A DNA stretch of 64,000 nucleotides from Malus domestica. Lineage: Eukaryota > Streptophyta > Magnoliopsida > Rosales > Rosaceae. Below the pieces are notes generated by a model that worked only from the letters and a program-made list of their open reading frames with translations, did not search any database and was not told the DNA's origin. Every line of letters starts with the position of its first letter. Position 1 is the first letter of the stretch. Positions 3,601-31,435 of this stretch are shown here, in pieces. The DNA lies in NCBI RefSeq assembly GCF_042453785.1, contig NC_091675.1, forward strand, positions 7,514,501 through 7,578,500. The letters run 5' to 3'. The translations under genes were made by a program, and so were the position numbers.

Positions 3601-6600
3601 TTTGAGAACTTTTAAGTTTCTCCGTCAGATCTTTAATAACAGTGATGGCATCATAAACAGAAGCAACGAAATGGCTTGAATCCAAACAATAATGAGACAC
3701 TGGTGTAGTTGTGGTGAAACTCCCAATAGACTCACCAAGCTTTCCAATCGCTTCAACAACCGGAGCGAGAGTGGAATCCCAATGCTGCTCAAGTATCAAG
3801 ACCCTATCTGCCGCTTCCTTGTGAAAATTTTCTAATTGATCAGAGATCTGAGATACTGTGTCATTTGAACTCAGATGGAAATCATGCAATCGACTCTGCA
3901 ATTGATTAATTCTTGATTCATACTTATGTAGCTTTCTTCCAACTTCCATGTTTTCTGCTTCGAGATTAGTAACTTGTAGTCTTAAGGACTCACAGAGAAC
4001 TACAAGCTCACTGTTCCTTGTTTCAATGCTGGCCCTATGTTGTTCTAAAGCTTCATATAGGACACCAAGCTCAATGTTGGTTGCTTCCAGTTTCTTGCTA
4101 TGTTCCTCCAAGTCTTCATACTGATCTTTCAGCTCAACGAATGTAGCATTAGCAGTTTTCCTCCCATCTCGTTCCTCCTTGAGCAGTTCACTGGCATTTG
4201 CAGCATCCAGGAGCAACTGCTCAAATAATGCTCTCAAGTTTCCAGTTTGCTCTCTTACTGATGCAATTGAATCTGCCGGTGATTGATTGTCAGTTAGACC
4301 TCGTTCCTCCCCATCATGTTCATCAAGGTGCACCTTTGACTCGAAGGCTTGAATCAGTTTTAAGACTGGAGGAGTGGAGACTTTATCACCTGACCTGTTC
4401 AACAATTCTGAACGAGAGCAGATGCCTTCAATCTCCTTTACAAGTTTATTCAACATTTTCTCTGCCTCTTCCACACGTCCCTTTAGTGCTACAAACCCAA
4501 AGGAATCATCAAAAACTTCCCTCCCAAGATTCAGAACTGATGAACCTCCTCCACTGCCATCAGATGAAGGTTTTTCCACCATAATAAAGGAGCCTTCACT
4601 ATCTTGATGATTTTTTTCATTTTCAGTTTCAATTTCATGACTCCTACTCCGCACTTCTGAAAGTTCAACTTGATCCCCACCTTCACCAGCTTGGTATGCA
4701 ATTTTGATTCCACTGTTATCAACCTCTATTATCTTAGCTTTAAGTATGTCCAGACTGCTAGTAAGAAAGTTATTTTCTTCAGAGAGTTTTTCAAGGCATG
4801 TTGTCGTTTCTTTTAAATCAACCTCCAACCTCTTATGTTCTTCATGTTCAGCAGATAACCGCTCTTGAAGAACAAGAATTTCGGAAGAAAGTTTCTCAAT
4901 CTCATGGGCAGAATAATCCTTCTCCTCCTCGAGCTTCTTTCTCTCCCCTGTAACCAAAGCAAGGCTTCCATTCAATTTTTCATTTTCTACCTGCAAATCC
5001 AGTATTAAATTCTTACTGGCAGCCAATTCTATTGCAAGTTTCTCATTCTCAGAGAAAATATGCTTTGTCTCTTCCTCAAGCTTCTTTCTCTCCTCTGTAA
5101 CCAAAGAAAGGCTTCTATTCAAGTTGCCATTATCTACCTGCAAAGCCAATACTGTGTTCTTACTGTCAGCCACTTCTATAGAAAGTTTGTCATTCTCAGA
5201 GGAAAGATGCTCCTTCTCCTCCGCAAGCTTCTTTCTCTCTTCTGTTACTGAACCCAGACTCCCACTTAAGCTGGAAATTTGATCCTGTAGAGCTTCTACA
5301 GAACTTTTGCCATCAACTAACTCTGCTGAAAGCTTCTCCTTCTCGTGAAGATAAAGATCATTTTGCTCAACAAGTTTCTTTCTATCTTCATCCCACAAAG
5401 CAATACTCCCATTTAATTTCTCATTCTCCACCTGTAAAGCTGCCACCAAAGACTTGCAGTCAGCTAACTCAGCTGACAGGCTCAACAAATCCTGCCGTGA
5501 CCTTTCCAGGCTACTATGCGACTCAATTGCTCTAGCAGAAAATTCTTCAACCTCTGCCTTCGCCGTTTGAAGTTTGTCTTGGAACTCCTCCTTCCCACTA
5601 ACAACAGCCTGGAGTTCACATCTGCACTCTGAAAGCTCTTCAGCAAGGCATTGGTTCTTCTCACGAACTTCTTGTAGTGAAGCACGAAGAAGAGATGTTT
5701 CATCGAGTAACTGATCGTGTTGGCAATCAAACTCCACTTGCATCTCAGACTGTTGCACAAGCTGCAAGTCACTGATATCTTTTGTCAAATGTGTGAGAAC
5801 CAATTCTTCTTTAAGTCGCTCAAACATTTCCAGAAATACATGTTCTGGCACAATCAAATTAGTAGTCCCCTGAAATGCATTAGAAACTGATTCAATTGAC
5901 TTCATAAGAACCCGGAACTCTTCTTCGCTGAGCCTCCTAACTACTTCTGTGAGCTGTGAGAGACTGATTGAGCTGACATCTGCAACAGGAGACGCCGTCC
6001 ATTCTTTATCTGGAATCACCATATTGGCTTCTGGAGGCCTTTGAAGTCCTTTTTTCTGATGATGATCCTCCGAAAGGGCCCCATGTTCTTCTCCGCCTGA
6101 AACATCTTCTGTTACCTGCCGGTTTTCCATAGCAGCACTAACAACCAAAGATCTATCTGCCTCAGGTAGAGCTAAATCAGACACTGAGAGTCCATCAGAC
6201 ATGGTTGCACCAGTTGACAGAGATGCTTCATCTGCCTTGCCAGTCTGGTCATCTATGGAGGACTCAAGATCTGGGAAAGTTTCAGCAGTTCTATCAATCT
6301 CAGACAGAGCTACACTTTTATCTCCTGCAAGTTCCACTTCTCTATCAGATGCTTCATACAGTGTATCAGTTTGCTCGTCTAAGGAATGTGCTTGCACAGA
6401 GAAACTTTCAAAAGTTCTATCAAGCTCAGATGAAAAAATCCTGTCATCTCCTTTAAGCTCCATATCTGCTTCTTGACTACGATTACAATTTTTTGCATCC
6501 AGACCATCAGCTTCCTGCATTGCCCCTACCCAGCAACAAATGAGATTCTAATTATATGTCAAACCCATCATTTTTCCTAACCTGCCCAATTAATTTCCCA

Positions 6601-14089: not shown

Positions 14090-14094
14090 CGTTA

Positions 14095-14467
14095 TGTTGA
14101 TGCACAAAACCGGAGGGGTCTTGGAACAACGTAAATCCGACCGTGAATCTACAAGAAAGTAAAGAACACAGGATGTATAGTGGTTCACCCCAATGTTTGG
14201 GCTACGTCCACACTGATGTTGATCGTATTTCTCTGTAACTGTATGTATGGATTACAAGTGTGAGGGGGAGTCCCCCAGAGAAGGAGAGAGTTTGAGAGAG
14301 TTTCTCTATTTGTGAGCCTTGTGGCTTTGTATGTGAGGATCAGACATGAGGATTGTGAGGGTGAGGAGGCCGTTTTATAGACTAAGGGTTCCTCCCCGTT
14401 TACATTAATCATGGGCTCAATGTCTGGAAGCCCAAGTAACGAGGCCCAATATAATATGGTACCAACA
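14095..14467 (-). repeat. 3' LTR of element A
   Basis: 373 bp and collinear with the 5' LTR at 17253-17624. Small differences such as CCGGAGGGGTC against CCAGAAGGTC show post-insertion mutation. Confidence 0.92.
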
Positions 14468-14689
14468 GTAGTCCCCCAAGTCTTCAGTCAAGAGAGTTTT
14501 TTGGCTGGAGACTTGAAATTTAGTCCATGTGTGGGCCGAAATAACTAGATGTTGTCTAGAACTGATACTCGATATGAGGCGGTGCTCAATGTGAAATGAT
14601 ACTTAACTAGAAGTATCACATGTTGTGAGGCTGTTTGGCTTGTGGCTTATGTTCCCTTGGTTGGCTCAGCTTGTGGTGTTGAAGGTGAT

Positions 14690-15110
14690 GGAGTCCATTT
14701 TATAGAATAAGGGCACGCTTCTCAATACATAAATGATAGGTTAGAGTTGATGTTAGCGGCGAGGCGGTTGCTCAGCAGACTGCGATACTCTCTAATAATG
14801 GTGAGAGATTCCCTTTTATAGAATAAGGGATCGCTCCTCAATACATAAGTGATGGGTTAGGAGTGATGCTGGCGGCGAGCCAGTTGCTCAGCTGGCGGCA
14901 ATGCTCTCTAATGAAGGTGAGGGAGTCCCTTTTATATAATAAGGGTTTGCTCCTCAATACATAAGTGATGGGCTAAGAGTCTATCTCTAATGAAGATGAG
15001 GAAGTCTCTTTTATAAAATAAGGGTTCGCTCCTCAATACATGAATAATGGGTGCTCTCTAATGAAAGTGATGGAGTCCCTTTTATATAATAAGGGTTCGC
15101 TCCTCAGTAC
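14690..15110 (-). repeat. Tandem TATA-module array in element A
   Basis: About five degenerate copies of a module containing (plus strand) CCCTTTTATA, then AATAAGGG, then GCTCCTCAATACATAA. In element sense each copy reads like the LTR core promoter region (TATAAAAGGGACTCC). Spacing is roughly 70-120 bp. The same module is repeated in element B at 30320-30850. Confidence 0.7.
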
Positions 15111-15409
15111 ATAAATAATGGGCTAAGTCCCCCAAGTATTTTTCATGAAGCCCAGTTGCAGAAGCCCAATATATGGTACATAGTGTAGTTCCTCAAGTCT
15201 TCAGTCAATAGAGTATGTTGGCTGGAGACTTCAGATTGAATCCATGTATGGGCTGAAGTGGCGGTTGTTCGGAGACGGTCTTTGTATACCCTGCACTGAA
15301 GCTTTGTAGGTGAAGCTTTGAAAGTAAAGCTTTGAAGCTTGAGCTTTTTGTAAATTAAGCTTTTGAAGCTGGAGCTTTGTAAATGAAGCTTTCGAAGCTG
15401 ATTGACATG

Positions 15410-15570
15410 AGTGATGCTCATGAATGTTTATGTTGATTGACATGAGTGATGCTCATGAATGTTGACATGAATGGTGCTCATGAATGTTGACATGAGTGGT
15501 GCTCATGAATGTTGACATGAGTAATGCCCATGAATGTTTATGTATGATTGACATGAATGATGCTCATGTA
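15410..15570. repeat. 27-bp tandem repeat in element A
   Basis: Several copies of ATTGACATGAGTGATGCTCA followed by TGAATGTT, some truncated. Just left of it (15297-15410) lies a run of AAGCTTTGAAGCT-type short repeats. Both motifs recur on the opposite strand in element B at 29880-30110. Confidence 0.75.
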
Positions 15571-15577
15571 TAATTTT

Positions 15578-15837
15578 GGAGTACTGGACGTACTTTTGAT
15601 CACCTAGTTAGTGATAATAGCGACAGGCTGCCGAATAATTTTGGAGTATTGGACGTACTTTTGATCACCTAGTTGGTGATAATAGCGGCATGCTACCGAA
15701 TAATTTTGGGGTACTGGACGTACTTTTGATCACCTGGTTGGTGATAATAACGGCAGACTGCCGAATAATTTTGAAGTACTGGACATACTTTTGATCAATT
15801 GGTTGGTGACAATATGGGGTGAACCTTAAGTGGAGGG
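15578..15837. repeat. 65-bp tandem repeat (four units) in element A
   Basis: The GGAGTACTGGACGTACTTTT motif starts at 15578, 15643, 15708 and 15773, exactly 65 bp apart. Each unit carries two small palindromes: GATCACCTAGTTGGTGAT and CGGCAGGCTGCCG. Element B has about three copies at 29680-29880 on the other strand. Confidence 0.85.
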
Positions 15838-16373
15838 ATGGAGGTTGGAGTTTGAAGCCATAGAGCCTGACTCTTTTGGGCATATGGGCATTCGCCCTCC
15901 ATATAACATTCCACCCCATTATTTTTGGCTTGCGGACATTTTGCCTTTTTTTTTTTTGACATGCTGCCTTTTTTCTTTATTTATGATTACAAGATAAGAG
16001 GGGCCGCACCACGAACAGTTACAATTCCTTCCTCTTTATTTTTCTTCTTTTGGCAAATGGCAGACAATAATTACATGATATAGCTAGGAATTGTGTGTCC
16101 ATACCCATTGTCATTTGACTAGGGTGCGATCAAAAGAAATTTTTCAGCTCTTTTGAGGCATAAAGAAGGGCAGCACCGCAATTCCTTCCTCTTTATTTTC
16201 TTCCTTTTGGCAGATGACAGACCAGGTATAATTCCTTCCTCTTTATTTTTTTTTCTTTTATTTTTTCTACTTTTGCTTTTCTCTTTTCCACCGCACCTCT
16301 TTCTCTGTCTCTGTCTCTGTCTCTGCGCTGCTGTCATGCATGGTGCACACTATCTTTTGCCGTTACTACTTTG

Positions 16374-16733
16374 TCAGACGCTTAAATTTGCACCTTTTGA
16401 GGGCCCATAATTGTACCAACACCACATCTCAGAATACTTGCAGTACATTTCTCCCAAATCCAATGGCAAATCCTTCAGTTCACTTTTCTCGATTCCAGCT
16501 TCATAAATGAATTTTTTCAAGGTTTTGGAGAACCCATTGTTTTCCAGGAACTGAGCCACGGTGCGGAGGAGTGGACCCTTTTGGTCGAGACTCAGAGTTT
16601 GTGCTCTGTCGGCAGAGCTATTGGGCTTCATGTGCTCCATGTCTCGGTTTGTGAACAGAACTTGGCGAGGCTTGAATGCAAGAAGGGTAGGGTTGATAGT
16701 GTCCTCCTGAGTGCTTGTTAGGGATTTGGGCAT
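16374..16733 (-). pseudogene. Captured fragment of a LisH-domain (NOLC1/SRP40-like) gene
   Basis: An open frame of 119 codons from ATG 16733, starting [21 protein letters not shown] LisH-like segment lies at about residues 54-100 (GPLLRTVAQFLENNGFSKTL, then LPLDLGEMYCKYSEM). LisH motifs mediate dimerisation; plant NOLC1/SRP40-like nucleolar proteins have this N-terminus. The last residues (WCWYNYGPSKGANLSV) do not look like the family, so the host similarity ends near 16410. Sequence 16734-16800 may be its 5' UTR, joined to the SMXL fragment. Confidence 0.65.
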
Positions 16734-16800
16734 GCGAGGATTCTGCTCTGAGTAGGTTTATTGGAGAATGATGAGGATAGAGGTTCTGGGTTTCTGCATA

Positions 16801-16974
16801 TTTGAGACAGGCCCGCCGCAAGAGGCTAGTTCTTGAGTTAAGAAGAGTGGCGGCCACGTGGAGAGAAGTGACCTGAGCATGGCCTCTCCGCCTTGCTAGG
16901 CTGAGAGAGTGTTTTAACACCGAAACAACCTCCACTGTGAGGATCTACTAAGTTGCCCCACCTCTTGAGCGCAT
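16801..16974 (-). pseudogene. Captured fragment of an SMXL (double Clp-N) gene
   Basis: From ATG 16974 the frame reads MRSRGGAT, two stops, then [20 protein letters not shown] and [15 protein letters not shown]...LLRRACLK. This matches the N-terminal Clp-N region of SMAX1-LIKE proteins (family knowledge: chaperonin-like repressors in karrikin/strigolactone signalling). The two TAG stops fall where family members have Gln-Gln, consistent with CAG to TAG changes. Similarity ends sharply at 16801, after about 58 codons, and passes into the LisH-gene fragment. A degraded gene piece carried by element A, not a functional gene. Confidence 0.75.
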
Positions 16975-17217
16975 CACTTGATCAAAAACTTGAACCCAGC
17001 ATGTGTTTTCTTCTTCATCTTGAAAAAAAAAACTTTCAGATAAGATAGAGAGAAAGAGAGAAATAGATCTAAGAATTGTGAAGCTCGTCCGTAGATGTTG
17101 TCGTGGCGGGGAGCTGGAACGGAAGGCATGGGTTTTGCAGTGACTGTGCAGGTGTTTGGTTATTGGGTTTCTGCAAATCCACAGTGGTGAGATGAAAAAA
17201 TGAATGAGAACCGACAT
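16948..17217 (-). other. Leader open frame of element A
   Basis: ATG 17217 lies 35 bp inside the 5' LTR boundary and opens 89 codons (MSVLIHFFISPLWICRN...). Element B has an ATG at the matching place, with a similar start (MSILFHFFIK). The frame runs into captured sequence and matches no gag I know. It could be a gag remnant or chance. Confidence 0.4.
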
Positions 17218-17252
17218 AGCTTTTTGTGTTGTTTCCCACAGACGGCGCCAAA

Positions 17253-17624
17253 TGTTGATGCACAAAACCAGAAGGTCTTGGAACAACATAAATCCGACCA
17301 TGAATCTATAAGAAAGTAAAGAACACAAGATATATCGTGATTCACCCCAATGTTTGGGCTACGTCCATATTGATGTTGATCGTATTTCTCTGTAACTGTA
17401 TGTATGAATTACAAGTGTGATGGGGAGTCCCCCAAAGAAAGAGAGAGTTTGATAGAGTTTCTCTGTTTGTGAGCCTTGTAGCTTTGTATGTGAGGATCAG
17501 ACTTGAGGATTGTGAGGATGAGGATACCCTTTTATATACTAATGGCTCCTCCCATTTTACATGAATCATGGGCTCAATGTCTGAAAGCCCAAGTAACTAG
17601 GCCCAATATAATATGGTACCAACA
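17253..17624 (-). repeat. 5' LTR of element A
   Basis: 372 bp, matching 14095-14467 and the LTRs of element B. It contains a TATA-like segment that corresponds to CTATAAAAGGGACTCC in B, the conserved CCAAACATTGGGGTGAA stretch, and the terminal GTTTTGTGCATCAACA. Confidence 0.92.
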
Positions 17625-20600
17625 CGTTATTCAATTTAGCAGTTGTTAATAAGCATGATATGTGACTGTAAGAAAAATAAGACCTAACTGGATAAATGAT
17701 TCTCATTTTGATAAAGTCCGGATAACCCTCATGATAAAAATTGAGCCTACAATTGTTTCAAACGTGGGGAGTTTTTGTCAATTCATGCTTGCATAACGTG
17801 TACTAGCTCGTCCCTAATAATTATGATTTTTATAATTTTAATAAGTGAGTTTACAAAAATGCCATTTGAGGCAAAGTGTTGACTTTAGTTGATTGTCGTG
17901 TCGTGTCATGTAAGGTTATTTTCTTGGCGTATTCTTGTAGTATTCGTTGCTACAAACGTGTGGGCACAAACGGAGTGTAATTTGGAGTTATAACGAATGA
18001 GATATTAACGTTTAAAGTCGAGGGAAAAATTGTAAATTACTATTTTCTATATAAAACTCTAGATTTCTGGAGCCAAATTTGGAGAGCCATGTGTGTGGCC
18101 CAGATTAAAGGGAAGAATGATGGGCGGTGGAGATGAAGTATAAAGAAGAGAAAGGTGGGGCAAGACGCCCAATCAGAAAAGAAGGGAAACAGTAAGTCAC
18201 CAATAGGGGAGAGAAGAAAGGAGGGGAAATGAGAGAGTGAGAAACATGAGATCATGGATCCCTCACCGGATCCTTGCAACCCGACCTGCGGAACAGTGGA
18301 ACTCGATGGGTTCCGATGATTTTTTCAGGCAAAATTCTTGCGATTTACGTCAATTTATCACCTGAGAACTTCCCAAAAGCCTTCCCCATTCAAAATTACA
18401 CACAACTTTGACAAGATTTGGTTTGGTTTTGTGGGATAGCATCGGCGGCATCATGGGGAAGATTGGCAAAAATCCTCCATTTCTGAAAGTAACCCTTCGA
18501 TCACCATCACCATTAGACTTCTCTTGAGTTCATGAGCAAAGCCCAGGAGTTTGTTGAGGCGTTGGAGCAAGTATGGAAGTCGAATCGAATACCACCCTTT
18601 ATTGGGTTTCCAATGGATTTTAATGAAAATGGGGATTTGCTTGGCAAAATTGGTCTTGGTCACAGGTATAAAAGTTGCTCTACTCACTGAGATCTTTATT
18701 TTTGTGAAATTTGGTAATTTTTTGACATAGTTGAATTTTCTGGCAAGTCGGGGCAGGCGACCGCCACCTGTGGCAGCGCGTGGGACGAGATGTCCCTTGA
18801 CCTTCCTAGGTTAAATTTGAATACCTTGATACCATTTGTAGGTTTGATTAACGAATTTCCGTCATTTGAACCTAGTTTCATTAAGGTCCGCCACCCGATT
18901 ATTATAGCAGTCGACGATCCGACCGTTGGATCGTCACTAAACTTTGATACATTGTAGTACATAATATTTGAAGATTTTGGAAACTTACGGATCGGGAATA
19001 TGACGTACAGATCTTCCCAAATAGGATATGTAAGTTAAGTGTTTTATTGACAAGAATTCTGAGATATGGTTTGATAATTGTTCTAGGCGCTGATCGTTTG
19101 TGACGCCTCGATGTTTGTACTAGGGAATTGTAGCGCAGACTCCAGGTGAGTGGGCTTTTGGTTTTCAATATATGTATATACGCTTTATGGTTTTCCCATA
19201 AAAATTGATTTAAATGATTTTGTGTTTTATATGCCATGTCAAATGCTTTATATTTTGGTATATGCTTTTAGTAGTTGTGTATGTTATTGTTTGATGATGC
19301 AGACGCTCAGGTAAGTTCTAGTTGAGTATATATATTGATGATTGTGAGTTTCATTATGATGGTTATACATAGAGGCACTTAGAGCTCATAAACCTGCACC
19401 CCGATGTTATTGCTCTCGCCCGTGGCCAGGGCATAGTGCTTCACGTGATGTTCACCTCCTGCACCGCATGCTCATCTTTGATCTAAGTTTTGTGCACAGT
19501 CCTGTCGTACAGACCACTATAGGTGGTTTCAACTCGTAGGTGACCCGCGATTATTCGCACAGTCTTCACGTAATCGTAGCACTTGAGCATACTTATTACA
19601 CCTAGTCATGTCGTACAGACCATATTAGGTGGTTTCAACTCATGTGCAGGAATTGGTTAATGAGCTATAGGTTCAGCCATACAGGTCACGTTAGGTGACT
19701 CCGGTTGGCATATCATTTTACATTGATTTATCTCACCTGGTTTATGTCACAGCCCGTTCCAAAATATTACATTCGTGGCTGTGAATGGACGAAATTGCCT
19801 TTAAGAAATACTAAGTATGTGAAGCTCAAGTTGATAATTATCTAAGTTCCTAAGTTTTGAAAATAAAATGGAATTTAATAAGGATGGAACTTAGATTTTT
19901 AGTTTAAAATTTTGTGGTTTAGAGTTGGGGATTGGAAAAGGACCACGTGGGATCCCCATTCCTTATTTCCCTCCCCATTTCCCGTATACTGTCCTTCACA
20001 CTCTCTCTCTCTCCTCCCTCACGATTACTCTCAGTTCTCTCTCCCTCTCCTTCGAACTCACACGGACCACCACAAAACCACCTAAAACCTATACCAACGA
20101 CGAATCTAACACCACCATTGGAACCCTGAAGACTTCACGATCACGATGGTATCCATTTCAAGTAAGTTTTGCTTCGGAAAACCCTAGTTTCAAAGTTCCC
20201 GTGAAATGGTACTGTTCATGATCTTTTAAATGGTTACGATTTAGGCTAAAACAAGATCACAGCGAGCTTGGTGAGGTCCCAAGGAAGCTCGGAGTGCTTC
20301 GTTGGAAGTTTTTGGACGTAAGAACACGGAGATCGACAAGTTCAAAGTTTGGCCGGAGCTTTCGAGGCTTTTTCCGGCGAATCCCCGGCGAGTTAGGAGT
20401 CGAGGTAGGTATCAATCTCTTCGTCTCGTCAAGTACTACAACTTTCCTTTTTGTTTCACTCAATTTCGTTGAGTATTGAAGAAGTTATACTCATTTGAAA
20501 AATACCCAGTTTCCGGCGACCTCCGAGGCTTTCGAGGCAGTTTACGGCCAAACCACGGCGAACTAGGTGTTGTGCAAGGTACCATTATCTTTGTCTCTTC

Positions 20601-21358
20601 AAGGGCTACAACTTTCGTTTTTGAATCACTTGATTTCGTTGAGAAATGACAAAGTTATGGCAATTTGAAAAACTGCCCAGAAAACGGCCGCCGGAAAAAC
20701 CAGTCCGGCGACCCAAGGAAGAAGAAGGTGCTACAGTAAAAATAAAAAATAAAAATAAAATTATTTTAAAAATATGTCGACGTCCGTGACGTCGAGTAGA
20801 TCACTGTGGTATATTCATATACCTAAATTGAACACCGTATGAGAAAGTTATTGAAGATTGTTGGTTAGGTGTTCAAATAACGTTTTATAGTTTTCACATT
20901 TAGGTGAAAATGTGAATTGATGATCCGACCGTTGGATCATCACCAAACTTTGATACGTTATAGTACGTAATATTTGAGGATTATTGGAACTTACGGATTG
21001 GGAATCCGAGTTACGGATCTTCCGGAATTGGAATTGTAAGTCCATAATATAAAATGTTAACCGTCACTTAGTTTTGGAAATTGACGGAAATCCAACCGTT
21101 GGATGGTAATGAAATTTTAGGATGTTATCCTAGAGATATATTGTGGACCTCTGGAAGTTATGGATTTAAAATCTGAGTGGCAGATCTTCCGGATCGAACT
21201 ACGTAGTGACGTATTTTATATAAGTTAAATATTCTATCGATATGAATTCTGAGGTTGGATTTGATTACTATTCTAGGCGGCGATCGTCGTGACGCCTTGA
21301 TGTGTGGTGCTAGGGAGTTGTTGGATGAACTCCAGGTGAGTGGGCAGTTTTGTTTTCC

Positions 21359-21360
<2 letters not shown>

Positions 21361-21436
<76 letters not shown>
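21361..21436. repeat. TA microsatellite, about 38 units
   Basis: Uninterrupted alternating TA of about 76 bp inside the inner solo LTR. The open frames across it on both strands (poly Tyr-Ile) are artefacts. Confidence 0.97.
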
Positions 21437-21438
<2 letters not shown>

Positions 21439-21583
21439 TTAACGTTTTCCCAGAAATTGAAAATGCATGAAATTATGTTTAAAATGAAATGCATATGAGT
21501 TATGTGGAAAAACGGGAAGTGAAATACCATGCATAGAATTGATATGAAAAGTATATAGAAATGTGAGTTGAAATGCCATGCAT

Positions 21584-21739
21584 GAATTGATTTATGATGC
21601 ATATGTATGAATTGGTGCGGTGGACGCACAGGTAAGAATTGATTTATGATGCATATGTATGAATTGGTGCGGTGGACGCACAGGTAAGAATTGATTTATG
21701 ATGCATATGTATGAAATGGTGCGGTGGACGCACAGATGA
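21584..21739. repeat. 52-bp tandem repeat, three units
   Basis: The unit starts GAATTGATTTATGATGCATA and contains GGTGCGGTGGACGCACAG. Copies begin at 21584, 21636 and 21688 and are nearly identical. The outer LTR has only one degenerate counterpart (near 19290), so expansion happened within the inner copy or its lineage. Confidence 0.9.
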
Positions 21740-23089
21740 GTATTTAATTACTGTTATGATGATGATGATATATATTGAGCTCAAATCCTGCACCATGGTT
21801 TAGTGCTTATAGTATTCACCGCATCGCACGCTCGCCTTGGATCCAAGTAGATGCTAGTCGTACAGTCCACGCGGAGTGGGTACGACAGACCAGTCGCGAG
21901 AGTGTTAGTGAGATTCCGACTGGTGGGTGACCTTAGATTATGTGCACAGATGATTTATGAGAAGCACTAGAGCGTAACTTGTGTGCAGAAGGCCGGACGG
22001 GTCACAGAGGTGACTCCGGTAGAGTGATAATGATAGATTTTGAGCTCTAGGTTCAACCGTATAGGGCTATTAGAGGGCCTACGGTTGATTACTTTCTTGC
22101 ACCTGATATGATTATGTTGATGCATTCATACCTTATTACTGTTGAGATGATGTGGCATGGCATAATTAATATGAGAAATGTTGAGATGACATGGCATGGC
22201 ATGATTGATAAAGAGATAATGTTGAGATAGTAAAAATGAAGTTTTGAGAATATATATGTATATTTATATTTTACATTTCTGGGAAAGTATACAGGTTTTA
22301 CGGAGAGGGGTTACAACGTTTTGAGAAATGTTTGGTTTTGGAAAAGAATTGTTTTACTGACCCACTCAATTTTGGTTTTGCGCCCCTCCAGGTTCAGGAA
22401 TCACAAAGGTGTGGTGACTACGAGGAATTCGACGGTGTTCTGACAGATTGGACAAAATTAGGACTCACCTTCGGGTGTATCAACTTATAAATTGTATAAT
22501 TAAAGCTTCCGTACTGTGCAAATGGTTACGTCACTCTCACGTGACGGCCAGCATGCCCTCCTTCGGGACGGGGTGTGTCAGTTTACATATTTCCTTGTTG
22601 AAATGATATGACATGACATACTTGGTTTTTACTGCCTTTGTGCATTGTTTTTACGTATATACGTAGTATTATTTTCTGGGAAATTATACAGGTTTTACGG
22701 TGAGGAGTTATTATTTTTGGAAAAGAGAAATGGTTTTCAAAAAGCTTTGTTTTTGCCCACTCACGTTTTTTCTGTTTTGTGCCATTTCAGGTTCTAGTAG
22801 CATAGTTTCTGTATCGATGAGGATTCTTGGCATATCCTAGAATAGTGGCTTCCTAAGATGGTATGATCCTTATCTTACCATATTGTACTTTACTTATGAT
22901 CTGACATCGCATATGAAATGAATCCATACCCGCTCACCTTACACTCATGTACTTAGGCACTTTTAGGTTTAAATTTATTCACATTTTCTACATCACTATA
23001 TTGTATGGTTTCGTTACCTTCTAGGTGTCAGCCAACACAACTCGATTCAGAGTCCTAGTGGACATTCCGGGTTGAGGTGTGTCATAACG

Positions 23090-24350
23090 ACTTTTTGTAA
23101 AGTCTTAAACATTGTGAATAGAAATATATCAATAATAGTTATCTAAACTACATATTAATAAAACACTCATTGTCAACTAGAACTATTTAAAATTACTAGT
23201 TTAACTTTCTAATTAAAATTGAACATGAATAAGTAATATGGGTAGAAATGTAAAAAATAAATTTCTCATTCCCACTTTATCACTCTCTTCCTCTCTCCTT
23301 CTACTTCAAAAAAAAAAAATATATATATATATATTTCAGACCCACTTTGTGTGTGCCCATGCCCCATATGCTAGTTACTTATAAAGAAAGTTATACAATT
23401 TAAAGACTCCAATAAAATCAAAGTATTGACTTTTTTTTGTTTATTGAAGACTTTTGAAGCATTCAAACATTGGGATTACACGTTTCATCTTCAAATCAAC
23501 CAAACAGTACAAACTTGAGAAATGTAAGGAAGATTTTCGTAAAATGAGATTCTCTACGAATTTTTGTATAATAATTTTTTTTATTTAAATAAATAATATT
23601 ATCTACCCTAAAAAAAAAAATTTAAACTTAACGTTACAATAAACTAACAATAATAATATTTAAATTCGTCAATATTAATAAAAAAAATATGCCAAGAACA
23701 TTTAATGATAAATGATCCATATAAAATCTGACTTTCAAAAATCTCCTTAACATTTTATCCCACAAACTTTATTTAACTCCAAACTCTGTCTCCTCCTACT
23801 TTCACAGTTTCACCCGTTGTCCTTTTTCTGGTCTGGTCAACCTTGTCCGTAGTTATTTTGCCCATCACGAGAAAATATAATACATATCAGTTTCTAGTTG
23901 TCGATGTCCCACACGGCCACGCTGACATTTCCTCCTTCTCTCCCTCCCGATAGATTTTTCATTATCACCGGTATACAAAGTGTTATATTACGTGTTATTA
24001 TATAAATAATGAAATATATGTGTTAGAAAATTAATAACTTAAAAAATAAAATTTCTCACTACTCTTATTAAAGCACGTGATGTACCATTTGTTTTTCCGT
24101 CACAACTAAAAATTTATCCTCCCTTCCCATCCTGGGTCCCAAGCGTGTAGAAAATTGTTTAGTTTATTCAGAAAAAGGTTATTAACACTCTAAAAATCTC
24201 ATTCTACACTTCTTACTAGTGTATTTTTCTTTTTAAATTTAGAAAGTTTGGAATGTTTACAAAAATTTTGTAGTGTCAATAACAATTCCTTTTAACTAAA
24301 TCCCATCCCTAAGAAATCTTCAAACCCCTCTCAGCCGTCCGATCTAAATC
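23090..24350. other. Intergenic region upstream of the WRKY gene
   Basis: AT-rich DNA with a short AT run at 23318-23334 and poly-A tracts. The last 500 bp should hold the WRKY promoter. A W-box core in reverse (GGTCAA) lies at 23835-23840. No gene seen. Confidence 0.5.
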
Positions 24351-24355
24351 GTACT

Positions 24356-24361
24356 TTGACT
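24356..24361 (+). promoter_or_regulatory. W-box next to the TATA box of the WRKY gene
   Basis: TTGACT at 24356-24361 is the core of the WRKY binding site TTGAC(C/T). A TATA-like TTTTATATGA follows at about 24380-24389, roughly 110 bp upstream of the start codon. Self- or cross-regulation by WRKY proteins is common in this family; binding here is inference. Confidence 0.5.
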
Positions 24362-24500
24362 CTCCCTCCCTCCCTCCGCCTTTTATATGATCCCCATACC
24401 CCTCAACACTCAACCGCCCTCACCCCAAATCTCAATTCCTCGCATGTCCTCTTGAGAGACCTCCCAACCTCGCCGGCCGGAGATTCTCGAAACCCAAACG

Positions 24501-26039
24501 ATGGCGGTGGAGCTGATGAACTTCCCGAAGATGGAGGATCAGAAGGCCATACAGGAAGCGGCATCACAAGGATTGCAGAGCATGGAGCACCTGATCCGGT
24601 TCCTCTCTCATCAGCAGCAACAGTCAAACAACCAATCGGCCCGCGTCGACTGTACGGACATCACCGATCACACCGTCTCCAAGTTCAAGAAGGTCATCTC
24701 CCTCCTCAATCGGACCGGCCACGCCCGGTTCCGACGCGGTCCGGTTCAGCCGGTTCACTTCCCTACTTCTCACCCCTCGTCTTCACAAACACTCAACTTA
24801 GCTTCGGCTCTAAATCTTACTCCGACTCCGGCGCCGGCTCCAGTGACTACTCCGGCTATCGTCCCTTCGACTCCGATCGAGTTGAGTTTCGTCCAATCCC
24901 AGCCACACAGCATGACGCTCGACTTCACGAGGCCCAACGCCTTCACGTCGAACCCGAAGAGCGCGGAGATTGAGTTCGCGAAGGAGAGCTTCAGTGTCTC
25001 GTCGAGCTCGTCATTCATGTCGTCGGCGATCACCGGAGACGGCAGCGTTTCGAACGGGAAGCTCGGATCGTCGATCTTCTTGGCGCCCGCCCCGGCCGTT
25101 TCCGGTGCGAAGCCTCCCCTCTCTACGGCGCCGTATAAGAAGAGGTGCCACGAGCACGACCACTCCGACGACACGTCGTGCAAGTTTTCCGGCTCGGGAT
25201 CTGCTTCCGGCTCCGGCAAGTGCCATTGCTCCAAGAGAAGGTACGTGTAATTCATTACCCGCGCATTTTAGTTTACACTTCCTGTCCCCAGCTAAAATAC
25301 GCCTCTCGCACGATTACTGAGACGATAGGATTTGGCTGGTTTTTCCATTGTCTCACGAACCACGAGAAAATTAGTTGGACCATCCGAGGAAGCGAGTTGA
25401 CTCGGACGACTCAACTCGGTTTTATTTAGTGGACCCGGCCCGTATCTGGGGTCAACGGTTTTGGTTGCTGGGCTTTAATGGTCGTAGCACGCGTTGACGC
25501 TGATACGTTAAGATGAGCCTGGCGTATTGTTTTTCTCCGCGCGTGGGATTATTTAATTTTGACCGACGACTAAAACCCCCTAAAATATTTTTTATATCCG
25601 CAATTTTAATTAATAAATTAATAGTTTTAATTTTTGGTAATTCAGGAAAAATCGGGTGAAGAAAACGATTCGTGTGCCGGCGATAAGTTCAAAAATCGCG
25701 GATATTCCAGCGGACGAGTACTCCTGGAGAAAGTACGGTCAGAAGCCGATCAAGGGCTCGCCTTACCCAAGGTACTTAATTTAAATCCCAGCCGTTGATT
25801 TGTAATCAAAATGAAAAATCGTGAGGTGATATATGATCGGACGGTGAGAATTGAATCCGACGTTTGCTTAATTGTTTTTGTTGAACAGGGGATATTACAA
25901 GTGCAGTACGGTAAGGGGGTGCCCGGCGAGGAAACACGTGGAGCGCGCTCCGGATGATCCTGCGATGCTGATCGTAACGTACGAAGGGGAGCACCGGCAC
26001 GCGCCGGAGAACGTGGGGTTGGTGTCTGAGTCGACGTGA
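24501..26039 (+). CDS. WRKY11: Group IId WRKY transcription factor (WRKY11/17-like)
   Basis: A plant nuclear transcription factor that binds W-boxes; the WRKY11/17 clade is linked to defence and stress regulation (family knowledge). Three exons: 24501-25240, 25646-25771 and 25889-26039, giving 338 codons and stop TGA. Visible in order: conserved N-terminus ([20 protein letters not shown]), the calmodulin-binding C-motif ([20 protein letters not shown]), the group IId zinc-cluster region ([20 protein letters not shown]...CHCSKRR), the WRKYGQK heptad, and a zinc finger with C-x5-C (CSTVRGC) and HRH. The third-exon boundary falls at PR|GYYK, the classic WRKY-domain intron position. Both splice joins restore the frame (AG|GTACGT and AAG|GTACTT donors). 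WRKY11 against WRKY17 cannot be decided by eye. Confidence 0.96.
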
Positions 26040-26199
26040 GTGAAAGTGGGTAGAAAGAAAAGAAAAGTGGGTAGAAAGATGGATTTGTTCCAGCAGTTTG
26101 AAGTAGTTGAGAGGAAGGTGGTGGAACTGGAATGGATGTAAATTTTTATTTTTATTTTTAAATCTTGTAGTTTAATTAAGTGGATAATGGGAAACAAAT

Positions 26200-27597
26200 T
26201 GAGGGAAGAATCTCAATCTGTCTCAGCGGTGTTTAATTTAACTAATTTTACTTCTTTCCAAATTATTTAATTAATTTTATTGTATTTCATTCGGTGGGAA
26301 ACTGGAAATAATATTTATTTTATTGGTTAATTACACTAATATCTCTTGAAGTTGAAGTTTAACGAGTTTTTACAAATATTTTTTTACATTTAAAACATTA
26401 CGCTAACATTTTTTCAAATTTTAATTCCTTTTATACAACGTTTTAGTAAAGTATATGCTCCTAAATTTATTAATTTATTCTTATTAATTACTGGAAACTA
26501 ATTAAAAAACTTTATAATTATATATAAAGATTATAAAACATTAAACACTTAAAATATAATAATACGGAAGCGATCCAAACATCAACCCGAGGGTTTTGAT
26601 ATTGCAGTTTTAATTTTACTTTTGATTCATCGGGGCCGTCTCAAGACGATGAAGCTCTTGAGTTTGTGGTCCTCGTTTTTCATTTGAGCTGTCGTATTTT
26701 AATCTATGAAATGAAAGTCAAAAAAGTTGATACGTAATTAGGGGGAATCATGGTGACTTAATTGATATGGGGGACAGTTGGCGTTATAAGTCAAAAGCTC
26801 CCCCTACCTTCCAATGAAATTTTATTTTTGTGGGAGGTAGGCATGAAGGCACTAGACTTTCGGAATATGTAGAAGTATATGATGTGTTATTCAAGATTCA
26901 TTTATTCCTCGATGTTCACCGTTTGAAATCATAGTTTGCTTTTTCCTTGATTGACTTAGTACACATTGAAGATTACATTGCCACAAAGTGTTAATGGATC
27001 GGTTTTTTCGCCTCTATCGATTTTTCTGGTCGGTTTGGTTTGAGCGATATTATCTTGGTTGTTTAGAGTTGAACGCAAAATTTTACCATTTAACTATTTG
27101 AGTCGTAAACTCATTAAATTATGCTTGAAAGCAGTGACTTGCCCTTGCCCACCACAAAGAGTTAAAGAAAGAAGTTTTGGATGAAGAATCGGAGTAAAGC
27201 AAAGAGAGCTAAAGTTCATGATCACAAATATATTCAGTTTGATTTCGTATAAGTGTTTAACCGTAGTTTTTGAAGGGACCAAATTGGCAACCGAATCGCC
27301 AAACGTGGTTTGGTTTGGTTTCATAAACAAATTAATTTTGCCATGTGAAATATCAACCTAATCCATCTAATTGTTGCGATTGATTGATTTTTTTCGCGTT
27401 TTATTCAATATTTTGTCCACCCTAGGAGGTTTGAAGAGGCCATTTGAGAAGAATAGTGTCTATTTTTATTGATGATGGGTTAAATAGAAGTTGAAGCTTG
27501 TTACTGAAGCTGGGCTATATTCGTGTTGGAAAAAAAGCTGCACCGCATACTACCAAATGGATGAAGATTAAGAAACATCTTGGGCATCATTTGGACT
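26200..27597. other. Intergenic, no gene seen
   Basis: Begins with the WRKY 3' UTR (to about 26250) and then AT-rich DNA. The open frame at 27094-27330 on the minus strand has no recognisable feature. Confidence 0.4.
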
Positions 27598-27970
27598 TGT
27601 TAGTATCATATTATATTGGACTTCGTTACTTAGGCTTCCAGACATTGAACCCATGATCTATGTAAAAGGGGATGAGCCCTTAGTCTATAAAAGGGACTCC
27701 TCACCCTCACAATCAAAAGGGCCTCACATCTCCAAAGAGAGGCTCATATCCAGCAACCCCCTCACACTCTCAAACTCTTTCTTTCTCTGGGGGACTCCCC
27801 ATCACCCTTGCAATCCATACATACAATTAGAGAGAAATACAATCAACATCAGTGTGGACGTAGCCCAAACATTGGTGTAAACCACGATACATCTTGTGTT
27901 CTTTACTTTTTTGCAGATTCACGGTCGGATTTACGTTGTTCCAAGACCCCTCCGGTTTTGTGCATCAACA
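27598..27970 (+). repeat. 5' LTR of element B
   Basis: 373 bp, TGTTAGTATCATATT...TGTGCATCAACA. A TATA box in CTATAAAAGGGACTCC lies at about 27686-27701, so the transcript should start near 27720. Confidence 0.92.
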
Positions 27971-28006
27971 TTTGGCGCCGTCTGTGAGAATCGACACAAA
28001 AAAACT

Positions 28007-28276
28007 ATGTCGATTCTCTTTCATTTTTTCATCAAATTTCACCACCGTGAATCTGCAAAATCACAAAAACTCAGAAACCCAATAATCTTTCTCTCTCTCT
28101 CCCTTCAGTTGTATTTAGTACTCATCGTTTCTAAGTCAAAGGACAAAACGAAACAGAACCCAACTCATTCAATTTATAAGCTTCTGAAATCAGAAGCAGC
28201 AAAAAATGAAGGAAAGCTGGAGATCCATCTTCATACAAACAAAACAACCGACTCACAAGGGAACCTGGAGGAGTAG
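28007..28276 (+). other. Leader open frame of element B
   Basis: ATG 28007 lies 36 bp after the 5' LTR and opens 89 codons (MSILFHFFIKFHHRESAKSQ...). Only the first 25-30 codons resemble the leader frame of element A. The rest is cargo-flanking sequence. No known protein. Confidence 0.4.
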
Positions 28277-28292
28277 AGAAAACGGCGGCAAA

Positions 28293-28488
28293 CCTGGAGG
28301 AGTAGAGAAAGCGAACGAAGGTCAATACGGCGTTGTACGAAACGCCGAGAATCAGAATGACCCGTTCGGAGCTCCGGTGCTTACGCGGCTGGTCGATTAT
28401 GTTCTCCAACACCGGTGACACCGAGGCCAGGATGCAAGAGTGCATCGGGATACGAAGGGCGTCACAAATGAGGATGTCGACGTCGGGT
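28293..28488 (-). pseudogene. Captured fragment of a BTB/POZ-TAZ (BT) gene, antisense to element B
   Basis: Minus-strand frame DVDILICDALRIPMHSCILA, then SVSPVLENIIDQPRKHRSSE, then RVILILG...FVRFLYSSR. This is the BTB/POZ domain of plant BT scaffold proteins (BTB-TAZ-calmodulin-binding; family knowledge: CUL3 ligase adaptors). About 65 codons are present without the TAZ part. It lies head-to-head with the HOP fragment. A stretch containing AACCTGGAGGAGTAGAGAAA is duplicated at its 3' side (28264 and 28291), perhaps a junction scar. Confidence 0.75.
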
Positions 28489-28540
28489 TCGATGAGAGAT
28501 TTGGTGCCGGAAAGACCGTGCAGGTCGACGGAGGTGCATC

Positions 28541-28741
28541 ATTTCGGCTTATAAGAAGGGTCTCGAGATCAATCCCGATAACGAGGCTCTGAAATATGGT
28601 TTGGCCGACACTCAAGCCGGTGCGGCCCTCTCCCGAGCTAGACCTCCGCCCATGAACCCTGATGCTGAAGCTTTCTCAAATCTCAAGATGTGGGCCAAGC
28701 TCATTGCGGATCCATCGACCCGAGCTTTCTTGCAGCAACCC
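28541..28741 (+). pseudogene. Captured fragment of a HOP/STI1 co-chaperone gene
   Basis: Plus-strand frame ISAYKKGLEINPDNEALKYG, then LADTQAGAALSRARPPPMNP, then DAEAFSNLKMWAKLIADPST and RAFLQQP. This spans the end of a TPR segment and the start of the DP/STI1 segment of Hsp70-Hsp90 organising protein. Similarity stops at LQQP, where the family would continue into the STI1 domain. The last codons of the frame (to 28795) are unrelated sequence. Confidence 0.82.
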
Positions 28742-28980
28742 CACAAATCTCGAAGTTTTATCCAATGGCGTCCTGCAAAGTTATCTCTCAATTGAGCCAT
28801 TCATGATGCCGCTGGATTTGATCAAAGATAACCAACATAATATTACACATAATTGTCTATATAAAAGCTTTGCTTATGGTAATTTTCCTAAAAGACGTGC
28901 TGTTGGAAACAAGAAATGTTTGAAATGGCCTCCTCATCCTGCTGTTCCTCACTGTCCTCCCCCTGACCAGCAATAACCAG

Positions 28981-29193
28981 CAACCAAAAAAGGCCTCATT
29001 TTCCCGCTCTTCCACAATCTCGGCCTTCTCTTCCTCCGGCAATGGCAGCCCTCCCAAGTCGTTCGACTACAACTTGCTCATCATCGACGTCGGCGTCAGT
29101 GACCACGGTGTCGCTCTCCACGCCGTAAAAAAGGTTTTGAAAACTGCCATAATGAGGAGATTGGAAAGGGATATCAAGAAAGCAGGAAAATGA
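28981..29193 (+). pseudogene. Captured fragment of a plastid dihydrolipoyl dehydrogenase gene
   Basis: Plus-strand frame [20 protein letters not shown], then [20 protein letters not shown], then [17 protein letters not shown]. It resembles the transit-peptide end and FAD-binding start of plastid LPD, the E3 subunit of plastid pyruvate dehydrogenase. The glycine-rich FAD motif is damaged: DVGVSDHG stands where the family has GAGVGGHG. Similarity ends at KTAI, then [13 protein letters not shown] and a stop. Sequence 28860-28980 may be more of the same N-terminus in another frame. Confidence 0.72.
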
Positions 29194-29610
29194 GATTGGA
29201 GATGGATCTCAAGAAATCTGATCCCTACCACTGTCGGCAAGCATGGAAACCATGATTGTGGATTTGGACAGTGGTTATCCACTATCCCACTGAAAAAAAA
29301 AACCCACGGGATAACATGCAAAAGTATCCCACTGAAAAAACACTCATGAGGAAGCAGTGGTCACATGCGCATGTTTGATGTTATGGTGGACACCACCTAT
29401 TATTCTATAGAGAATTTCAATTTCTTTGGGATCTCTGTGGTTGCCTCCGCAACTACCAGCTGCACATGTTATCCCATTATCCAACCATCTGCTATACCCA
29501 CCTTCTACAGCAGTCTTTTTTTTTAATGATGTAATTTATTTTTCTTATTTTTTGGAGACATCTATATAAACCCCATAAGAGGGTAATAAAAAAAAAAAAA
29601 AAAAAACGGC
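29194..29610 (+). other. Unassigned part of the element B cargo zone
   Basis: No recognisable protein similarity. It contains a partial direct repeat (TATCCCACTGAAAAAA at about 29282 and 29324) and ends in an A tract (about 29588-29607) that resembles a poly-A tail. It could be further captured UTR sequence. Confidence 0.35.
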
Positions 29611-29679
29611 AAGCCTAAAATAATGGGCTGGAATGTTATGTGCCCATATGCCCAAAAGAGCTAGGCCCTATGGCTCCAA

Positions 29680-29885
29680 AATTATTCGGCAACCTGCCGC
29701 TATTATCACCAACCAGGTGATCAAAAATACGTCCAATACTCCAAAATTATTCTGCAACCTGCCGCTATTATCACCAACTAGGTGATCAAAAGTATGCCTA
29801 GTACTCCAAAATTATTCGGCAGCCTGCCGCTATTATCACCAACTAGGTGATCAAAAGTATGTCCAGTACTCCAAAATTATATATG
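29680..29885 (-). repeat. 65-bp tandem repeat in element B
   Basis: About three copies of the unit seen in element A at 15578-15837, on the opposite strand. Key parts are CCAAAATTATTCGGCA, GCCGCTATTATCACCAAC and AGGTGATCAAAAGTA. Confidence 0.8.
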
Positions 29886-30319
29886 AGCATCACTCATGTT
29901 AATCATACATAAACATTCATGAGCATCACTCATGTCAATTATACATAAACATTCATGACCATCATTCATGTCAACATTCATGAGCATCACTGATATCAAT
30001 CAGCTTCGAAAGCTTCATTTACAGAGCTCCAGCTTTGAGAGCTTCAGCTTCAAAAAGCTTTATTTACAAAAGCTCCAACTTCAAAGCGTCACTTGCAAAG
30101 CTTCACCTACAAAGTTTCAGTGCATAGTCTACAAAGACCGCCTCCGATCAACCGCTATTTCGGCCCATACATGGATTGAATTTGAAGTCTTCAGCCAACA
30201 ACCTTTATTGACTGAAGACTTGGGGGATTACACTATGTACCATATATTGGGCTTCCACAACTGGACCTCATGAAAAATACTTGGGGGGACTTAGCCTATT
30301 ATTTATGTATTGAGAAGCG

Positions 30320-30850
30320 ATCCCTTATTCTATAAAAGGGACTTCCTCACTTTCATTAAAGAGCACCCATTATTCATGTAATGAGGAGCGATCCCTTATT
30401 CTATAAAAGGAACTCCCTCACTTTTATTAGAGAGCACCCATTATTCATGTAATGAGGAACGAGCCCTTATTTTATAAAAATGACTCTCTCACCATTATTA
30501 GAGAGCATCGTCGCTAGTTGAGCAACTGCCTCGCCGCGAGCATCACTCATAACCCATTATTCATGTACTGAGGAGTGAGCCTTTATTTTATAAAATGGAC
30601 TCTCTCACCTTCACTAGAGAACATCGCCGCTAGCTGAGCAACCGCCTCACTGAGAGCATCACTCCTAACCCATCATTTATGTATTGAGGAGCGAACCCTT
30701 ATTCTATAAAAGGGACTCCCTCACCATCATTAGAGAGCATCGCTACCTACTGAGTAACCGCCTCGCCGCGAGCATCAACTCTAGCCCATCATTTATGTAT
30801 TGATGAACGATCCCTTATTCTATAAAAGGGACTCCCTCACCTTCAATGCC
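30320..30850 (+). repeat. TATA-module array in element B (six copies)
   Basis: The motif TTATTCTATAAAAGGGACTC or a close variant occurs near 30334, 30397, 30467, 30581, 30700 and 30817. Each copy is preceded by CCCATTATTCATGTA/TTGAGGAGCGA and followed by CCTCACC and usually GAGAGCATC. The core is the same as the LTR TATA region at about 27686. Confidence 0.8.
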
Positions 30851-31057
30851 ACAAGCTGAGCCAACCAAGGCAACATAAGCCACAAGCCGAGCATCCTCGC
30901 AACATGTGCTACTTCTGGTTGAGCATCATTTCAGATTGGGCACAACCTCATATTGAGTATCAGTTTTAGACGACATCTAGCTATTTTAGCTCATACATGG
31001 ACTGAATTTCAAGTCTCCAGCCAAAAGACTCTCTTGACTGAAAACTTGGGGGACTAC

Positions 31058-31430
31058 TGTTAGTACCATATTATATTGGGCATCGTTACTTGGGCTTCTA
31101 GACATTGAGCCCATGATCTATGTAAAAAGGGAGAAGCCCTTAGTCTATAAAAGGGACTCCTCACCCTCACAATCAAAAGGGCCTCACATCCTCAAAGAGA
31201 GGCTCATATCCAGCAACCCTCTCACACTCTCAAACTATCTCTTTCTCTGGGGGACTCCCCCTTACCCTTGTAATGCATACATACAGTTAGAGAGAAATAC
31301 AATCAACATCAGTGTAGAGGTAGCCCAAACATTGGGGTGAACCACGATACATCTTGTGTTCTTTACTTTCCTGCAGATTCACTGTCAGATTTACGTTGTT
31401 CCAAGACCCCTCCGGTTTTATGCATCAACA
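31058..31430 (+). repeat. 3' LTR of element B
   Basis: 373 bp and collinear with the 5' LTR. Differences such as CTCACATCCTC against CTCACATCTCC and GTTTTATGC against GTTTTGTGC mark mutations since insertion. Confidence 0.92.
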
Positions 31431-31435
31431 TGACT

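Follow-up and report, generated by a model that had tools for sequence, protein, structure and literature searches.

The question raised by this stretch of apple (Malus domestica) DNA is how two related retrotransposons came to hold pieces of different host genes at the same internal position. The window, i.e. the whole 64,000-bp stretch that was analysed (C15:7514501-7578500 of a searched 651-Mb assembly of 19 contigs; positions without a contig or locus label are those of the window), contains two long terminal repeat (LTR) elements, A and B, each with host gene pieces as cargo between a leader and a 3' module. We propose, with a probability of about 0.86, that A and B belong to a high-copy non-autonomous LTR family of the apple lineage, in which the cis-acting ends have been kept, the host cDNA between them is exchangeable, and this cDNA was captured via RNA. 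The outlines of the two elements are as follows.

14095..17624, minus strand: element A, an LTR element
14090..14094, no strand: target-site duplication of A, CGTTA
14095..14467, minus strand: 3' LTR of A, 373 bp
14468..14490, minus strand: purine-rich stretch CTTGGGGGAC preceding the 3' LTR of A
17152..17251, minus strand: leader of A, including the primer-site region TTGGCGCCGTCTGTG
17253..17624, minus strand: 5' LTR of A, 372 bp
17625..17629, no strand: target-site duplication of A, CGTTA
27598..31430, plus strand: element B, an LTR element
27593..27597, no strand: target-site duplication of B, GGACT
27598..27970, plus strand: 5' LTR of B, 373 bp
27971..28075, plus strand: leader of B, including the primer-site region
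31040..31057, plus strand: purine-rich stretch preceding the 3' LTR of B
31058..31430, plus strand: 3' LTR of B, 373 bp
31431..31435, no strand: target-site duplication of B, TGACT

The LTRs of both elements have TG...CA ends, and the flanking target-site duplications match at 5/5 positions in A and 4/5 in B. Behind the 5' LTR, A and B have in common TTTGGCGCCGTCTGTG and a leader of about 100 bp, and the features by which LTR elements are recognised are thus present: a primer site, TTTGGCGCCGTCTGTG, after the 5' LTR and a polypurine tract (PPT), CTTGGGGGAC, before the 3' LTR. The primer for TTTGGCGCCGTCTGTG is presumably tRNA-Asp. The primer-site letters had no literal match in the literature searched, and DNA patterns compared with viral and bacterial collections gave nothing except one 19-mer in Flavobacterium, which was taken as chance. 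The Kimura two-parameter distance (K2P) between the 5' and 3' LTR is 0.089 in A and 0.080 in B. Between the LTRs of A and those of B it is 0.19-0.24, and between their 3' modules (about 1.5 kb) 0.142 over 1,346 columns, for which reason we take A and B as two subfamilies. In the part of the frames that was scanned, no gag-pol was recognised in either element; the longest internal frame has 136 residues, and the scanned pieces gave host domains only. The cargo lies inside the limits set by LTRs and target-site duplications in both elements. An earlier note, made from the sequence of the window, had described A and B as LTR elements with common LTRs, primer-site region, leader, purine tract and 3' module, and without gag-pol; this description is confirmed within the frames scanned.

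The same note had named five cargo genes, SMXL and a LisH gene in A, and BTB-TAZ, HOP and plastid lipoamide dehydrogenase (LPD) in B, and these proved correct; parent genes for all five pieces are present in the same genome:

16773..16987, minus strand: first cargo of A, SMXL piece; nearest parents C13:24625964 and C16:26463057
16420..16777, minus strand: second cargo of A, LisH-gene cDNA consisting of two joined parent exons; parent C16:26227080-26228139
28278..28537, minus strand: cargo of B, BTB-TAZ cDNA piece, antisense to B; parent C6:29046277-29046611
28542..28741, plus strand: cargo of B, HOP piece; parents C6:11852179 and C4:11082243, an unbroken match with no intron in the stretch
29001..29151, plus strand: cargo of B, LPD piece; parent from C13:11812653 onwards

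Where these names (SMXL, BTB-TAZ, HOP, plastid LPD) are finer than the matches cited, they are what we take the genes to be. The SMXL piece matches a SMAX1 chain (E 1.6e-8) and its genomic parents at 84-89%. The LisH piece matches its parent in two blocks (94% and 99%), and the 700-bp intron (GT...AG) between the parental exons is missing from A; a second parent has an intron of 397 bp. Similarly, the BTB piece (Pfam E 8.8e-7; 91% and 89% to its parent) lacks the 112-bp parental intron (GT...AG), which measures 117 bp in a second parent. The HOP piece shows a DP domain (E 2.6e-4) followed by a TPR end, in the order of the gene albeit both below Pfam's cut-offs, and one of its genomic parents translates as HOP. 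The LPD piece, in which the first 16 matched nt of parental exon 2 follow directly on the end of exon 1, gave no match by protein or domain search in PDB, Pfam, NCBIfam or the protein collection; its identity is settled solely by the genomic parent, the exons 1 and 2 of which read as plastid-type lipoamide dehydrogenase. Directly behind the LisH piece lies a 39-bp tract (16385-16423) that is found at seven other places (35-39 bp, 92-97%) and may be another scaffold segment.

Further members were collected from the genome with the LTR of B as query. Among 2,892 first-look candidates, 40 were scored, and 20 stretches around scored hits were examined, paired LTRs first; the sample is biased towards LTRs close to that of B and loci with paired LTRs. 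Twelve of the 20 stretches contain 14 elements with leader and cargo slot, with the module in view in 13 of them; the stretch of E14b ends ahead of the module, and just the tract preceding it is visible. Six other stretches have a single LTR with no module seen nearby, namely five solo LTRs (flanking duplications 5/5 in four, 4/5 in one) and L020. Beside one solo LTR, a frame at L025:6702-7199 looks by eye like a remnant of a caulimovirid-type RNase H. L023 and L024, with pieces only and cargo not delimited, were dropped before any counts. Together with A and B, this makes 16 elements picked without regard to their cargo; three more (E31, E32 and E36), found via HOP cargo, are excluded from the 16 and included among the 19 slots compared below. 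Target-site duplications flank all 11 elements with both LTRs read (5/5 in seven, 4/5 in four). Their LTR pairs differ by K2P 0.059-0.089, suggesting insertion 2.3-3.4 million years ago at a rate of 1.3e-8 (PMC5664825), or earlier if the rate in a tree is slower. Spans range from 3,486 to 7,921 bp (3.5-4.5 kb in 10 of the 11 measured, 7.9 kb in one), with LTRs of about 367-386 bp. In the part of the frames scanned, none of the 14 other elements shows gag, protease, reverse transcriptase or integrase.

Cargo varies between the copies. The following host families were recognised in the sampled elements other than A and B, counting Pfam matches at E 0.01 or better:

E10: subtilase propeptide; pyruvate dehydrogenase (PDH) E1 (below Pfam's cut-off)
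E11: DUF630
E12: CNNM and PUNUT (both below Pfam's cut-offs); BTB_2, antisense
E13: eIF-6; PDH E1
E14a: DCC1-like (below Pfam's cut-off; split genomic parent); HSF
E15a: EF-hand; longin
E15b: fatty acid desaturase
E16: ATP-synt_C
E18: SAM synthetase
E21: Methyltransf_29
E28: P450
E29: TCP1/cpn60 (below Pfam's cut-off)

Matches to New_glue, DUF7099 and CTD were left uncounted as low-complexity frames, and those to MORF_dom and Herpes_teg_N as overlapping the subtilase and V-ATPase c hits, respectively. A host gene is thus recognised in 12 of the 14 elements besides A and B. By Pfam or parent matches, and including the five genes of A and B, 22 host families are found in 14 of the 16 elements, and in 7 of these 14 the cargo comes from at least two families. 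An all-against-all comparison of the 19 slots, in each of which the cargo is placed between leader and 3' module, identified private cargo in 16 of 16 elements (237 bp in B, 960-4,302 bp in the other 15). The check proposed earlier, a search of the species' own genome by LTR, returned numerous copies that agree in their flanks and carry different cargo, and neither identical cargo everywhere nor cargo outside the LTRs was encountered. Some pieces recur: HOP DNA is common to B, E31, E32 and E36 with differing neighbours, E32 also has the LPD stretch of B (92%), and a short pyruvate-dehydrogenase-like stretch is common to E10, E13 and E15a. Since shared cargo occurs in new combinations, copies also recombine, and not every piece is a fresh capture.

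The state of the introns points to the route of capture. Eleven host pieces were searched against the genome for parents, and introns are lost in all seven pieces whose parents have an intron within the matched stretch (LisH, BTB, LPD, P450, DCC1-like, V-ATPase c and eIF6), including four introns in the P450 parent (C4:31056776-31058158) and two in that of eIF6. For the SMXL, HOP, dynein-light-chain-like (by eye) and HSF pieces, the matched stretch crosses no intron or cannot be judged. No retained intron was seen among the 11 pieces, and the loss in seven of seven implies that capture went through spliced mRNA. Unbroken matches across exon joints at further genomic places (LisH, P450, eIF6) are probably more copies of cargo. 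Uptake at the DNA level, whether of genomic DNA in the manner of Pack-MULEs or Helitrons, by gap repair, or by insertion into an ordinary element, would accommodate antisense cargo and the short, mixed host pieces, which resemble those of Pack-type elements; we nevertheless consider it very improbable, since it accounts neither for the seven losses of introns nor for the constant position of the cargo in the 19 compared slots. In addition, the inverted pairs in the cargo of A and of B (four each) are short, imperfect and partly A/T-rich, and none marks both edges; Pack-MULE terminal inverted repeats were not found around the pieces in A and B, while for Helitron termini no dedicated search was made.

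Orientation agrees with an origin from mRNA: among 14 elements, 11 of the 27 longest frames scanned in sense contain host domains, as against none of the 28 longest in antisense (Fisher p 1.1e-4; two longest frames per strand and element, with 27 of 28 sense frames scanned, L028:5401-5673 being left out, and 28 of 28 antisense). The antisense BTB piece of B could be held against mRNA capture, but was set aside as an argument because locus L039 (C16:2558524) is a sister element with the leader and the next 181 bp as in B and with BTB in sense behind them. This indicates an inversion within the family, with the sense form apparently older than the antisense form.

At 6 of the 7 junctions for which adjoining alignments were compared, the alignment ends have 2-9 nt in common, as would be expected of template switching:

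SMXL-LisH junction: overlap TCCTC, 5 nt
junction of LisH with the next tract: overlap 4 nt
three junctions in E14a: overlaps of 7, 9 and 2 nt
leader-P450 junction: overlap 3 nt
BTB-HOP junction: no overlap

In a simple random model an overlap of at least 2 nt has a probability of 0.16 per junction, a figure to be read with the small number (n=7) and the soft alignment ends in mind.

Because the cargo is spliced, mostly in sense, often derived from several genes and joined with short overlaps, we infer a sequence of template jumps. The parts retained in cis would be the LTRs, the primer site with the short leader, and the 3' module with the PPT. Element RNA, transcribed from the LTR, and host mRNAs would be packaged together, the particles being provided in trans by a Ty3/gypsy helper. 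During minus-strand synthesis, reverse transcriptase may depart from the element RNA upstream of the 3' module, copy stretches of one or more spliced host mRNAs through jumps guided by microhomology, and rejoin the element at the leader. The cDNA then integrates with a 5-bp duplication, as the target-site duplications show, and cargo is recombined between copies, as the shared pieces in new combinations show, presumably in later rounds.

The 3' modules of both elements are built of ordered repeats:

14680..15127, minus strand: A, TATA/U3 unit derived from the LTR, present in five diverged copies
15171..15257, minus strand: A, internal diverged copy of the PPT and the start of U3 (the unique 3' region of the LTR)
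15402..15536, minus strand: A, 25-bp repeats
15560..15814, minus strand: A, 65-bp repeats
15946..15957, minus strand: A, 12 consecutive A bordering the module on its upstream side
29444..29587, plus strand: B, tract preceding the module, part of the scaffold, all or part of it common to at least ten other members
29588..29606, plus strand: B, 19 consecutive A bordering the module on its upstream side
29667..29880, plus strand: B, 65-bp repeats
30203..30250, plus strand: B, internal diverged copy of the PPT and the start of U3
30292..30855, plus strand: B, TATA/U3 unit derived from the LTR, present in six diverged copies

The order is 65-bp repeats, 25-bp repeats, the internal PPT and U3 start, and then the TATA/U3 units, with five TATAAAA units in A and six in B. 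Most of the module thus derives from the element itself, as diverged copies of its PPT-U3 start and its TATA region, a feature absent from the earlier note, and the late part of the module can be taken for amplified promoter sequence of the element. The TATA-unit copies, which precede the 3' LTR and point the same way as the element, could act as extra promoters.

The run of A at the downstream edge of the cargo in both A and B, together with the spliced state of the cargo, would also be expected if processed pseudogenes made by long interspersed nuclear elements had been inserted secondarily into a defective LTR element and then copied. This we regard as, if anything, even more improbable than capture at the DNA level, since the tract before the A-run of B is common to many members and hence scaffold rather than a fresh tail, several genes are fused per element, mostly with short overlaps, and host domains lie in sense frames. 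For capture via RNA, too, the A-run was demoted as a candidate for the poly(A) tail of a captured mRNA, as the 60-145 bp before it in B are common to other members; it could be a landing pad for mRNA tails.

The size of the family was estimated from its fixed ends. The LTR end with the primer site (at most 2 mismatches) occurs at 4,364 sites genome-wide and the cargo-type leader (at most 3 mismatches) at 1,772, in both cases with 0 in the control; the leader of B carries an inserted base and should escape the latter pattern. Ten exact sites of the LTR end with the primer site, taken from the top of the listing for contig C1, comprise seven with a gag frame (six open, that of L052 broken), two with partial gag (L050 and L057) and, as the tenth, L053, of the cargo type but with no cargo identified; owing to this choice of sites, one in ten is no estimate of the cargo share. 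The gag is of family PF03732 (E 5.2e-12 in the one gag element scanned). In the two gag elements with the LTR read, the LTR differs from that of the cargo elements, and what they have in common is confined to about 43 nt at the tip of the LTR and the next 30 nt or so. The autonomous relative with matching LTR that the earlier note had suggested looking for was accordingly not found; the gag-bearing elements, which share only the primer site and the LTR tip, are helper candidates, no more.

Several observations weigh against capture via RNA by a family with fixed ends. A helper whose whole LTR is the same was not found among these gag-bearing elements. L020 has an LTR and a cargo-type leader and no known 3' module in reach (L020:4734-9901); its 170-residue frame containing MSGPSDRRFDLN had no Pfam match. 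No host domain was recognised in E14b and E19 (2 of the 14 sampled) nor in the cargo-type L053. The BTB and HOP pieces of B adjoin without overlap, and four of the six overlapping junctions border a tract that is shared within the family or lacks an identification, rather than a traced host gene. Finally, two host pieces are antisense, BTB in B and BTB_2 in E12, the latter in a shorter frame outside the orientation test.

A further step is to regard the scaffold family, of, very roughly, 1,800 copies with the leader, as a standing system for the capture of mRNA in which nearly every copy has its own mosaic of spliced host pieces. We lean slightly towards this idea, for which 19 slots out of the estimated 1,772 leader copies have been compared; if true, the family would be both an engine of exon shuffling and a fossil sample of the host mRNAs once packaged with it. 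The same mechanism could also operate without any special scaffold, as background pickup of mRNA by any gutted LTR family, this family being just an old one of high copy number, in which recombination has spread the cargo of fewer captures. Capture by LTR elements is indeed widespread, with 425 elements in 81 families in maize (PMC2774510) and further cases in soybean (PMC4717578), and sharing of cargo between copies is seen in the apple family as well, so that we put this explanation at only a little below even odds. It is at variance with private cargo in 16 of 16 elements and 22 host families in 16 elements, seemingly far denser than 425 of 35,229 in maize, although the latter number counts full-length elements before filtering, methods and families differ, and one apple family was surveyed. 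Of the repeated capture by a specialised scaffold put forward earlier, the recurrence of the same ends with different cargo stands; the scaffold may be specialised or just permissive.

How far such elements were known before can be judged from the plant families described. The Bs1 element of maize is an LTR element with pieces of three host genes (PMC13317346, a 2026 review), consisting of exons only (PMC4717578), and intron-less host pieces between LTRs, by which Bs1-like elements are recognised, are also found in the apple elements; Bs1 is one element with one gene set, whereas in the apple family the cargo differs from copy to copy. In soybean, GmaRetroS15 and other terminal-repeat retrotransposons in miniature (TRIMs) are small LTR elements with target-site duplications and exon-only pieces, three genes being found in one element (PMC4717578). 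Gene pieces occur in 30 TRIMs of 1,172-1,449 bp, which belong to 7 of 289 subfamilies; more than two genes are present in two TRIMs (PMC4717578). The apple elements, in contrast, are larger (3.5-4.5 kb, one 7.9 kb), have a repeat-rich 3' module, carry a recognised host gene in 12 of 14 cases, and lack the very small size and short LTRs of TRIMs. The 425 elements with nuclear gene pieces in maize B73 represent at least 189 captures, and the authors found none that combines pieces of two or more standard nuclear genes (PMC2774510), as compared with at least two genes in 7 of the 14 apple elements with recognised cargo. Counts of gene-bearing LTR elements are also available for rice and sorghum (PMC3726574), and in plant LTR elements with extra frames, transduced pieces are usually in sense (PMC7264820). 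In pepper, spliced NLR genes reside in LTR elements, mostly non-autonomous ones (about 72% of retroduplicated NLRs), which implies movement in trans (PMC5664825); there, mainly one gene class was amplified, whereas the apple cargo consists of short, broken pieces of many unrelated genes. In Retand-type Ty3/gypsy elements the 3' LTR is preceded by a long region that in many cases contains tandem repeats, and some members are non-autonomous, but their internal regions of 7.4-12.9 kb usually have coding domains (PMC11963269), none of which was recognised in the apple elements; tandem repeats before the 3' LTR are common to both and insufficient for membership.

Gene capture by plant LTR elements is therefore known; as far as seen, its regularity and breadth within one scaffold family are apparently new. 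A described high-copy apple family of this kind was not found in the literature searched, with most subscription journals outside reach, which is weak evidence of absence, and the earlier suggestion that the family may be undescribed keeps this much support. How LTR elements gain host genes has so far been argued mostly from single cases. If the sample holds, fixed ends with hundreds of different spliced inserts would allow a statistical reading of the rules of capture: at which points reverse transcriptase changes template, what overlap this takes, which mRNAs become packaged and how often cargo is exchanged.

The family also carries a warning for annotators, as apple protein sets hold hypothetical proteins that resemble fusions of such cargo. 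Several of them (P0003-P0006 and P0008-P0010) resemble gene models built on cargo of the kind found in A (14095-17624). P0003 matches element A in two blocks, as would a spliced model on a near copy. The Malus protein P0008 is the LisH piece fused with SF3B6 (E 2e-40 to p14), P0009 is alike, P0010 is the LisH piece fused with a PUB-type N-terminus (E 0.0027, below cut-off), and in P0004 and P0006 it is fused with partners that lack an identification. Most LisH-fusion proteins would appear to lie in family members; further LisH copies were located, their LTRs not being seen.

Elsewhere in the window, an uninterrupted frame of 1988 residues on the minus strand (581-6547) looks coiled-coil-like by eye, and three 52-bp tandem repeats (21577-21750) adjoin a long simple repeat.

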